Positions 3,391-9,300 of a stretch of 44,283 bases of DNA are shown here, one piece after another (within the stretch, counting starts at the first letter, position 1; every line of letters starts with the position of its first letter). A program made the position numbers and the translations under genes. The stretch is from a virus: IMG/VR virus record IMGVR_UViG_3300035211_000051, positions 1 through 44,283 of that record, one strand, 5' to 3'. A model generated the notes under the pieces. It had not been told where the DNA came from, made no database searches, and worked only from the letters and a program-made list of their open reading frames with translations.

Positions 3391-6300
3391 GCGATCGCGT
3401 AAACGCACTCATCGCTGAAGGGCTCTCCCTGGGGGCCCCGCAGGCGGATCAGTCCAGCCCTGGCGGGCCGTCATCGGTCGATAGCCTGATCGCCGAGGGC
3501 CTGTCGCTGGGCGATGTGCAAGGGAACGAAATCGACTTCCTGGACGCGGCCGGCCTGATCGCGCCGTTTGAGCCCGCGCCCTTTCGCGACATCGACCCGC
3601 GCTGGAACGCCCCCGGCGGTCCCGGCCTGGTATCCGAGCCGAACCCATACAACCCGGATGTCCAGGCCAGCTACGCCGGCCCGCCGGTGCCGTCGCCGGA
3701 ACAGAACTACCTGGTGCACCACCAGCGCGAGCTGGCCGCCGGCGGCGTGCGCAACCCGGACGGCAGCATCAGCACCGTGCGCGGCATGACGGTTGGGGCC
3801 GATGGCCGTCACTATCTGATCCCGACGGTGTGGGACAACCAGATTCTCAGCGAAGACGAAGCCTGGCGGCGGGCCAACCAGGTTGGCCTGGAGAACTTCC
3901 CGAGCGGTGCCACAGCACAGGATGTCATGGCAACTGAGCGGCGCTTGAAGGAATCCATCAACGCCCAGGCCGGTGGCGGGAACATGCCGCTGGGCTCCAT
4001 CGTCCAGCCCCAACAACCGCCTGGGCTCCTGGAGCGCCTGGACAGCCTGCTGCCGCGGGCGGACTTCTCGGCCCAGGGCAGAAGCACCAGGCCGGTCCAG
4101 GCCCTGACGCCTGGCGAGGACATCACGGGGTACGACGCGCTGTGGGACCGCGGCACGCTCAACGCCCAGCGGCTGTGGGCCCAGGGCTACGTCATGCGCG
4201 CCGGGCAGAGGCTGGAAGACCTGGTGAAGCGCCAGGCTGGTGAGCTGCTGCCACCCAGGCCGCGCGGGCCGAATGCGCCGATCGCGCAGCCGAAGCCAAT
4301 GGAGCCCCTGCCACCGGAGGAGGCTTACGCGCGGGCCGAGCAGAATGTCCAGGAGCTGGAAAGGGCCGTCGTGCGCCTGTTCGATCTGAACAAGCGCGCC
4401 AGGGAATTCGGCGTTGATCCGGTGCTGGAGAAGTATTACCGGGACACCAAGGACGCGAGCCTGCTGGAGTCCCTGGCCTACATCGTGAAGAACCCCGAGG
4501 TTGGCCTGCGCGGCTTCATTGAGTCGCTGCCGATCACCGCCCCCGGCCTGATGGCCGGCCTCGCCGGCGGCCCCGTTGGCCTGTTTTTCGGTCCAGCGCT
4601 GACCGGCGTCATGGCGGCCGGTGCCGAGATCGGTGTTGGCATGGACGAGGCCATGAAGGAGCAGGGCCTGGACCCGGCCAGGATGACCGAGGAGCAACAG
4701 CGCGAGTGGCTGTCGCAGCCGCAGAACATCACGCGCGCGCTGGAAATCGGCCGTGCACGCGCCGAGATTATCGGCAGCGCCGAGGCGGTTGGCCTGGGCC
4801 TGGCGAAATTCCTGGGCCCGACCTGGAAAAACTTGGCGATCCAGGGCGTGGCGCAGCCGGTCCTGGAGGGCGGCGGCGAGGCTGTTGCCGGCCTGGCTAC
4901 GACGGGAGAGTTCGACCCGGCCGAGGTTGCGATGGAGGCCGTTGCGGGCAGCATGTCCGCGCCTGTCGAGGTCGCCACCGGCGCGGCGGAAGTCGTCCTC
5001 AATCCCGAGCGCCAGGCCGACGCCTTCCTGCGCGACCTGAGCAGCGGAAAGATCGAAGTCACGGGCAACGAGCGGGACATCTTCTCTCGCGCCGAGACGC
5101 TACAGCTCGACCTGGTGCGCAGCATGGAGTCGGAAGCCGACGCCGAGCGCGTGCAGCGCAAGGTGCAGGAGCTGGAGCTGGTGAAGCAGGGCGTCAACAC
5201 CCTGTCGAACCTTGAAACAGAGCCCGAGCCCACGTTTGAAGCGGAGAAAACCCGTGAAGGTAGTTACGAACCAACAGCTCCAAGCCAACCTCAAGCAGCG
5301 ACTGTTACGCCTTTCCCAACGCAGGCAGGAACAGAAGTACCTCCCGTATCAGTTGTTCCTGGAACGTCTGATGGAGGGCGCGTTGAAGGCGGCTTCACAA
5401 GTGGACAGCAAGAACCAATCACAGCGTCAGTCGAGCCCGCCGGCAACGTAATCCCCGGCGAGGATCAAGCCTGGCGGCGACAGGCTGGCAAATCCTCCGG
5501 CGAGATAGCCGACGAGGCCGTGCGCCGTTTCTGGCAGCCGGCCCTGGACAGGCGGCCACAGGACGAAGACGAGGAAGGCATCTACACGTTTGGCGTTGAC
5601 CCGTACACGGGCGAGCGCCGCGAAGACACTGTCGGCCGCGTGATCGGTTCCGACGACCAGGGCAACCTGTGGCTCCAGGCACCTGACGGCCGGGTGAGAA
5701 AGCTGATGGCCAGCTACGTGGCCAGCCCGCAGGCCGTCCCCGAGCAGAATGTCCCGCGCCAGGAATTCGAACGTCAGGCCGACGAAACCACGTTCACGGC
5801 CAAAACGCTGGACGGCGCGACCATTGGCGTGAATTCGATCATTGCGCTGGTTTCGGAGCATAAGAGGGGCATCGCTATCCCCGCGCGTGTGATCGAAGCA
5901 AATGACCAGCGCCTGGTTATCGAACAACCATCCGGCGAGAGGCAGACCATCAAGCGCAACCAGATGCGCAACTGGCGGCCGTACACGGGCAAGATTCCGC
6001 GGGCGATGCTGAACCGCATCGTCAAGGGTGAGTCGGTCAAGAAAGACTCGACCAAGGATTGGGCCGAGAAACGGCGCAGGGTCAACGAGCAGGCGGCCCG
6101 CGAGAAAGCCGAAAGGGCCAAGCGGCGCGAGTCCTGGGCCCCGGTTCGCTTACTGGAAGACAATCTTCGCGAGGCCAGCAAGAAAGACCTGGAAACCAAG
6201 AGCGCCGTGCAGTTGAAGGCAATGGCGACCGAGCGTGGCCTGCCGGTCACGGGCTCAAAGCAGGCGCTGATGGACAGGATCACGGCGTACCGTGAGATTG

Positions 6301-9300
6301 TCATGCTGCTGGCCTACAACCTCCCCGGATCGACAGGACTGAAGTCCCGCGTCTGGGACGCCGAGCCTGGTGACGCCTTCTTAAAGCGCCTGGCCGACCT
6401 TTTGCCGGTGGCCTTTGGCAAGAAGAAGGGCGGCCAAAGCGCACTGATCAACACGGACTATTGGGAACGAACCCTCGCCGGGGCCCTGGATGACGCGCAG
6501 GAAGTCGCCAAGGTGCTGGAGGCGAGGAGCAAGAAGGCCAAGGCCAAGAAGTCCCAGCCAAAGACCGAGCCCCCGAAGACCGAGCCGCCAAAGACCGCCG
6601 GCCAGGAGCCCGCGCAGCCTGCGCCGAAACCGGCTCCGAAGCCAACGAAGCCGGCCGAGGTCAAGCGCATCTTCGCGGACAGGATCGAACTCGACGTTGT
6701 CTACGAGCTGCGCAGCCTGGACGACATCACAACGTCGGACCAGGAGGGCTACCCGCCGGAACTGCAACCACGCGATCGCTCCAGGATCGCGAGCCAGGAC
6801 CAGATACGCGACATCGCCAAGAACCTTCGTCCCGCGCAGTTGATGGAGAGCGCGACCGCCGATACTGGCGCGCCAATCATTGGCCCTGACGGCAACGTGG
6901 AGTCTGGCAACGGGCGCATCATGGCGTTGCGGGTGGCCGCACAGGAAAACCCGGCGAAGTACGCCGAGTACATCCAGGCGCTCCAGGACGCCGGCTACGA
7001 CACGGCCGCGGTGGAGAACCCGGTGCTGGTGCGCCGGCGTGTCACCGACATGAGCCAGCAGGAGCGCGAGGCGTTCGTGTCTGCGGCCAACACCAGCCAG
7101 GTGGCGGCGATGTCCTCCACCGAGCAGGCGAAGCAGGACGCCAAGATCGTCCGCGACATCATCGGCGGGTTCGACCCGGACAGCGACCTGGACTCGGCCA
7201 ACAATCTCAAGTTCCGGTCTGCCTTCGTTGGCAAGCTGCCAACGAACGAGCGCGGCGGCCTGATCGACAGCAATGGCCGCCTGTCGCAGCAGGGCCTGAC
7301 CAGGCTGCGCAATGCCATGCTGGCAGCCGCCTACGACGACACCGACGCCATTGCGCAACTGACCGAAGACCTGGACGACACGATCCGCAGTGTCACCAGC
7401 GCAATGGCGCGCGTTGCCGGCGACATCATCGTGCTGAAGCAGGCGGTCACGGACGGAAAACTCGGGCCCGAGTTCGACATCAACCGCGTCATCACGGACG
7501 CAGCCCAGAAGCTGCGCCAGATTCGCGCCGACCGCAACCAGAACGTCGAGAGCTATCTCGGTCAGCAGAGCATGTTTGACGAGGGCGACCCGCGCATCGC
7601 TCTGCTGCTGAGGGCCTTCTACAACGACGACCTGACGCGCGCTCTCGGCGCGGACAAGGTGGCGGCTTTCCTGCGCACCTACCACGACGAGGCGATGAAT
7701 CTGACCAAGGCCGCTGGCGATTTCTTTAGCCAGGGCAACAGCAGCGCCGACATCCTGGCGATTGCCCTGGCGGCCAGAAACCAGGACGTACCGAAACAGC
7801 AGGGCATGTTCGACCTGGACGAGACAACCATCGTCGGACACACCGCGCGCCTGTACGACGAAGTCGGCATGAGCCGCATCGGCTTGGCGCTGTCAGAAGT
7901 GAACTTCTCCCAGCGGCCGTCCTACCACCAGATGGCCTGGCAGATGGCCGGCCTGGACCCGGCCAAGGTCGCCAACATGCCGGCGGACAAGAAGATCGCC
8001 GCGCTGGCCAAGGTCATGCGCGAGATATTCGGGTTCCGGGTGGTCGTGGACCCACGGATCAAGTACGCGCACGCGATCCACCAGATGCTGGACGCCGTTT
8101 CCAACCTGATCCACATGAGCAGCGAATTGCAGCTCCCGGTCAGGGCCATGTCGCTCAACGGCACGCTGACGCTGCGCCTGATCAGCCGCAAGCAGATGCG
8201 CAGCGCGCTTGGCATGTACGACCCTGTCACCAAGTCTCTGTATCTGCCGGATCGGTCCAACTCGTTCTCCCACGAGTGGATGCACGGCCTGGACAACTAC
8301 CTGGTGGCCCTGTTCTCGCAGCACGCCAACAAGCCTGGCGCGGAAAACGCGCTGTGGACGAGCGTCATCCAGGAGCTGGGCGAGGACGTACCGAGTCGGA
8401 CCCTCCAGGGCGCATTCCTGCGGCTGGTCAACACGCTGACATTCGGTGCCGGTGAGCCCGTCATGCGCCTGATGACCTTGCTGGAAGTCCTGGCGCACAA
8501 GCAGAACCTGACCCCGACCGATCGGCGCAACCTGAAGACCCAGATAGAGGCGCTGAACAGGGTGATGAGTACCGGCAAGATTGCCGGCAAGGGCCAGCGC
8601 GACCTTCGCGCGCACATGGGCGAGTGGGTGAAGCGGATCGAAGCGCTGGCGAATGCCGGCCAGTTGAACCCACGCCTGGTGTCCTACTACATATCCCCCT
8701 GGGAAATGCTGGCGCGTTCGTTCGAAGCGTACATGGCGCACCGGCTGTCGCGCACGACACGCGACACGGCGTTTGTGACCAAGCCCGACCTGTTCTACCA
8801 GGCCCAGAGCCTGGAGTGGGTGAACGCGATCTATCCCCAGGACGAGCAGCGCCGGGAGATTTTCCGGCTGTACGACGAGCTGTTCGACCACCTCCGGGCG
8901 GTCCAGGTGTTCCAGGGCGATTTGCCGGATACGGCCACGCAGCGCGCCAACCGGCCCGCCTATACCCCGGACGGCCAGCCTGTCATCTATGGGCCCAACG
9001 CGCCCGAGAGCAGGATTGCCCTGGAGCTTCAGACCGGCGGATCGAACGGTGGCTACAAGCCGCCGTCATGGGCCGGCGAGGCGCTGGGCCCGATGGACGA
9101 TTGGCTGGGGTTCGCAGGCGGCTTTATTGGCGGCACCTGGAACACCTTCCGTCACCCCATCAAGACGATATCGGAGGCGCTGGAGAAGGCGAATCGGGGC
9201 CGCCAGGCGTGGCTCTCCGCGATGGTCACGCGCATGAAGGCGGTCGAGCGTCGGTCGCCGAACAACCCCTACGTCCGTGAATGGGTGCGCGCCGTCACCT

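Follow-up and report, generated by a model that had tools for sequence, protein, structure and literature searches.

The polyvalent protein gene and its linker

The window analysed here is an entire virus record of 44,283 bp with a GC content of 62.6%; it carries terminase, portal, major capsid and tail-fibre genes, and, among named phages, Microcystis phage Mae-Yong1326-1 (48% identity in the portal) and Rhizobium phage RHph_N65 (portal 40%) are closest to it. Its longest feature of interest (Table 1) encodes a large polyvalent protein (LPP), in which ddrB-ParB, LPD and further domains lie within one giant phage protein, with Pfam matches to PF18763 (E=7e-35), PF18796 (E=5.5e-10) and PF02037 (E=1e-6); the top phage match of its second half is a Mae-Yong protein. 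Like the DdrB-type LPPs described by Iyer et al. 2017 (PMC5512222), it is a giant multidomain phage protein with PF18763 and PF18796. With those LPPs, which come from phages and conjugative elements, it shares ddrB-ParB, LPD1 and SAP domains joined by linkers, here in a tailed phage, but it differs from them in that one of its linkers has an extreme codon shift. The text of PMC5512222 nowhere mentions linkers, disorder or overlapping genes.

Over the whole LPP gene, GC by codon position is 0.648/0.444/0.847, and no frame break was found in the gene outside the stretch discussed below. Relatives close enough for dN/dS were sought with pieces of the LPP, the whole LPP, the portal, the major capsid, the terminase and the N-terminal domain as queries, and none was found in IMG/VR, GTDB genomes or INPHARED; for structural genes the identity of the relatives recovered does not exceed 61%, and for the N-terminal part of the LPP it is about 30%, the conserved Gly/Ala-rich domain being about 30% identical to its counterparts at the loci L032 and L039 (= L235 and L234). 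The linker region has no match among plasmids.

Table 1. Features of the LPP gene and of the linker stretch (aa, residues of the LPP)
Feature	Position	Strand	Basis
Large polyvalent protein (LPP) gene, 2843 codons	3387..11918	+	Pfam and PHROG matches, distant relatives
Conserved N-terminal Gly/Ala-rich domain, directly 5' of the linker	4347..4990 (aa about 321-535)	+	L032/L039 similarity
Disordered P/T/E/Q/V/G linker, outer frame	5235..5466	+	linker run, GC3, AlphaFold2 coil
GGAG Shine-Dalgarno-like site, 7 nt before GTG	5243..5246	+	sequence
AAAA run, putative +1 slip (AAA to AAA) into the inner frame	5247..5250	+	sequence; rival reading only
Candidate inner ORF, 65 codons, frame +1: VKVVTNQQLQANLKQRLLRLSQRRQEQKYLPYQLFLERLMEGALKAASQVDSKNQSQRQSSPPAT, then stop	5254..5451	+	codon tests
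SAP domain of LPP	aa 935-969	+	Pfam
ddrB-ParB domain of LPP	aa 1099-1218	+	Pfam
LPD1 domain of LPP	aa 1766-1838	+	Pfam

The frame of the LPP gene (the outer frame) encodes disordered sequence in the linker, as a sequence-only reading of this DNA had proposed: a P/T/E/Q/V-rich run that AlphaFold2 predicts to be coil, most of it at a pLDDT of about 30-37. Across 5235-5429 the GC content at third positions (GC3) dips in this frame, and the minimum of 0.31, in the 65-codon window that starts at 5235, is the lowest among all such windows of the gene (mean 0.85). Outer-frame GC by position over the inner ORF is 0.701/0.621/0.348, and at fourfold sites GC3 is 0.40 in the linker vs 0.87 elsewhere, a dip deeper than in any other linker examined. 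The dip exceeds what chance would give: no outer-frame score is more negative among the 64 loci (274,411 codons) first surveyed, and the phase reversal is among the three strongest in an enlarged set of 121 loci (477,595 codons). Most of the other strong reversals in that set show the R-rich outer translations that are expected when a sequence is truly read out of frame or the wrong ORF has been picked. A second, P/K/T-rich linker of the same gene (about 6537-6650) keeps a high GC3. A regulatory element at the linker was considered and rejected, since promoter or terminator patterns and repeats are absent there and the RNA fold z is 0.33.

Nested within this stretch is the candidate inner ORF, a GTG, 64 further codons and TAA in frame +1 relative to the LPP gene. 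The sequence-only reading had noted an open frame with its own GGAG-type ribosome-binding site lying wholly inside the giant gene, and that description stands; its counts of G or C by codon position (61/31/71% in the inner frame, with a drop at outer third positions) likewise agree with our recount of 0.631/0.354/0.708. GGAG also precedes several other genes of the phage, and such a site occurs at 7 of the 121 out-of-frame NTG codons of the LPP gene. The linker run starts at the same base as the GC3 dip, 5235, which lies 19 nt 5' of the inner start; the inner signal opens with the GTG itself (maximal inner-frame segment 5254-5415). These ends do not separate the hypotheses weighed below. The length of the ORF is unremarkable and within what the host gene would be expected to yield: stop-free +1 runs of 60-194 codons are usual over the linkers of GC-rich LPPs, longer spurious ORFs are present on both strands of this LPP gene, and the +1 frame stays open with a probability of 0.38 when codons follow the usage of the whole gene and of 0.05 when they are permuted locally.

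The inner peptide is predicted, from its single sequence, as one helix spanning residues 6-58 (mean pLDDT 75.5), but models built from one sequence often render polar peptides as helices, and the prediction therefore counts for little. Searches of Pfam, PHROGs, NCBIfam, PDB and phage sequences returned no homologue (best E=0.08). The amino-acid score of the peptide falls in the range of real proteins and is higher than in any +1 window taken from genes of the phage. On the antisense strand, reverse frame r2 gives z 1.6-2.4 with a score near or below zero.

Codon signal in the two frames

When the outer synonymous codons were shuffled so that neither the outer protein nor the number of each of its codons changed, the inner score of +18.4 stood against -3.9 +/- 5.1 in the permuted sequences, with 0 of 5000 as high and the permuted +1 frame open in 5%. 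The same z for +1 frames in the phage's own genes has a mean of 0.72 (sd 1.13), and the inner frame ranks top of 477 windows; its calibrated z of 4.06 is above the maxima of two sets of low-GC3 windows, 721 from natural linkers of related phages (3.16) and 700 others (3.99). Among natural linkers with GC3 0.25-0.45, 1 of 613 matches the +1 score of the inner ORF and 3% are open. The permutation test does have false positives, because a window of the L260 LPP reaches z 4.12 though its +1 frame scores -15 and is plainly non-coding, and the nominal P values overstate the case, the candidate having been chosen for its looks. Under a shuffle that also keeps the codon-junction dinucleotides, the inner score becomes ordinary (P 0.24-0.28); we rejected this version as a decisive test because it is over-conservative, fixing most of what makes the inner codons. 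Overall, the arrangement of synonymous codons favours the inner frame, though not decisively.

The outer frame is real in the linker, and part of the information it holds is left unexplained by the inner frame. Its translation consists of linker residues to 92%, with R/C/W/H at 1.6% against 29% in genuine -1 frames from the phage, and so lacks the look of an out-of-frame product. Permuting the inner synonyms yields an outer linker content of 80% +/- 3%, against the 92% observed (z 4.2); not one of 3,193 control windows is as extreme, on a measure that was picked after the sequence had been seen; redrawing the inner codons from phage usage gives P 0.019 for the outer linker content and 0.0007 for the outer amino-acid score. 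At L032 and L039, too, a P/E/Q/V linker in the outer frame comes directly after the orthologous N-terminal domain. The reciprocal permutations thus reveal independent signal in both frames.

Linkers of related polyvalent proteins and the origin of the inner frame

The same tendency is seen in the linkers of other LPPs. Fourfold-site GC3 in the linker vs elsewhere is 0.72 vs 0.92 in L256 (P=2e-9), 0.76 vs 0.95 in L003 (P=1e-18), 0.70 vs 0.86 in L260, 0.64 vs 0.81 in both L261 and L257, and 0.81 vs 0.92 in L264; the drop is significant in all these GC-rich LPPs, not significant in L258, and absent from L262 and L263, which have moderate GC3, and from AT-rich LPPs. In L256 (codons 371-508), L257 (439-503) and L003 (280-446) it is the positionally equivalent first linker that is affected. 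In those or in other linkers of these LPPs the +1 frame can score above the outer one, as it does here but with no strong permutation signal: the +1/outer scores are +13.5/-19.6 in L256 (z -0.6), +24.7/-9.9 in L264 (z 1.2), +7.1/-4.8 in L257 (z 0.7) and +16.8/-3.3 in L003 (z 2.5). No nested gene is indicated in the affected linkers, their +1 translations share nothing evident with the inner peptide, and stops break the +1 frame of the orthologous N-terminal linkers of L032 and L039. Codon phase reversal is therefore largely a property of relaxed linkers, of which the stretch at 5254-5451 is an extreme case. The order of GC by codon position, which had been taken as the mark of an inner gene, is not diagnostic: low outer GC3 itself produces such an order, and the relatives' linkers drop GC3 too. 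The composition shift as such is diagnostic only in part.

Among the linkers of related LPPs, those at codons about 924-1010 of L264 and about 869-935 of L257 also combine a coding-like +1 frame with a poor outer one. Long ORFs of L009 (from 16683, codons about 326-406), L208 and L205 have an odd or R-rich outer translation and, inside it, a good translation in an alternative frame; these records probably contain genuine frame errors, or the wrong ORF was picked.

We posit, as the probable reading, that the locus is a disordered linker with relaxed codon usage and that the inner ORF is its by-product. The predicted disorder, the GC3 below that of the rest of the gene and the like tendency in relatives are observed directly; the cause of the codon relaxation, and that no inner product is made, we infer. 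The linker would act as a disordered hinge that joins the N-terminal Gly/Ala-rich domain to the SAP/ddrB-ParB (nuclease-like) part, and such a hinge would evolve fast and be freer of the codon bias of the gene, allowing a shift to A/T-ending synonymous codons; the extreme relaxation here may reflect drift, escape from very GC-rich, repeat-like sequence or recent import from an AT-richer relative. Outer P/A/T/S codons that end in A or T would be read as Q/L/K/N/R codons in +1, which would make that frame protein-like and nearly stop-free. The lack of relatives of the inner peptide, the ordinary score under the junction-preserving shuffle, the depressed GC3 and phase reversal of the relatives' linkers, the shared first base of linker run and dip and the stops at L032 and L039 all agree with a by-product, while the dip being the deepest seen, a z of about 4 that is absent from 1,421 low-GC3 controls, the rarity of so high a +1 score and of open frames among natural linkers of similar GC3, the low chance of an open frame under local permutation and the high GC3 of the second linker of the same gene speak against it. 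A eukaryotic study (Homma et al. 2016, as cited in PMC9153123) found less optimised codons in disordered segments, and PMC9153123 itself describes the codon differences in such segments of E. coli and yeast as only slight. As far as that account goes, the present linker is similar in being less codon-biased than its flanking domains, but differs in that its shift is large.

The alternatives ascribe the inner frame to coding. Our analysis leans against the overprinting proposed by the sequence-only reading, and we regard it as possible but doubtful. As we frame it, ribosomes would use the GGAG site within the LPP mRNA to initiate at GTG 5254 and would make a basic, helical protein of 65 aa; the same doubt attaches to the corollary that a change-tolerant linker was overprinted, its third positions becoming inner second positions. 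The first permutation test, the rank of the inner frame above all low-GC3 controls and the phage's own windows, the maximal segment that opens exactly at the GTG, the protein-like amino-acid score and the independent signal in both frames argue for it, but the phase reversal recurs in other LPP linkers that have no strong permutation signal, the non-coding L260 window reaches as high a z, the junction-preserving shuffle removes the effect, neither a homologue nor close relatives for dN/dS were found, and the choice of the candidate by its looks inflates the nominal P values. Such a gene would resemble the overlapping viral genes found from one genome by Schlub et al. 2018 (as cited in PMC7531306) in its open +1 frame and codon-permutation signal, and would depart from what is cited of them in being short, of unremarkable length, without homologue and known from sequence alone.

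Compensating frameshifts, whether old mutations or assembly errors, would make the inner frame the original and leave the outer one out of frame; this had been named as the main alternative, and the lead of the inner over the outer frame across 50 codons (+16.6 vs -18.7) accords with it. We consider it improbable, because the outer linker is authentic by its residue composition and by the reciprocal codon test and because the P/E/Q/V linkers of relatives sit at the same place in the same frame; the rest of the LPP gene, moreover, has no frame break. Least credible of all is a programmed +1 frameshift at the AAAA run, stimulated by the GGAG, that would join the N-terminal part of the LPP to the inner tail in an isoform of about 690 aa. 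An AAA-to-AAA slip is possible beside the internal GGAG, and the inner frame is open from the run to 5448, but the A site offers neither a slow codon nor a stop, the spacing of the site is unlike that of the RF2 type, the inner signal starts at the GTG rather than at the run, and no conserved site is known.

In GC-rich genomes, phase-shifted GC by codon position is used as a sign of a nested gene. Should the inner frame not be translated, the relaxed linker serves as a warning that this sign also arises in disordered linkers with relaxed codons; if it is translated, the linkers of giant phage proteins could give birth to new genes while the outer protein is unharmed. The broader idea, that disordered linkers of phage polyvalent proteins are nurseries of small out-of-frame genes and that 5254-5451, with its own GGAG start, is one of them, strikes us as somewhat more doubtful still than overprinting at this locus by itself.

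Repeats at LPP N-termini and the tail fibre

The extreme N-terminus of the LPP (3399-3515, aa 5-43) contains the motif LIAEGLSLG twice. At the N-termini of other LPPs, too, a short motif occurs two to three times, the copies agreeing within a phage but not from one phage to another: PEGFD(L/I)V three times in L256, PPPPxGFxLD three times in L257, RTFSDAEVSAP twice in L260, DDW(I/V)VPDA twice in L264, P(P/Q)GFVLDQ twice in L265, DPWAVV twice in L003, DFRP(A/S) three times in L235, FGLF three times in L259 and FKGAFDDLVPTP twice in L050. These repeats could be a virion-targeting or ejection signal. In the tail fibre of the phage (27233-30676, 1147 aa), the last 110-280 residues match many tail-fibre families and are perhaps a shared chaperone or knob domain.
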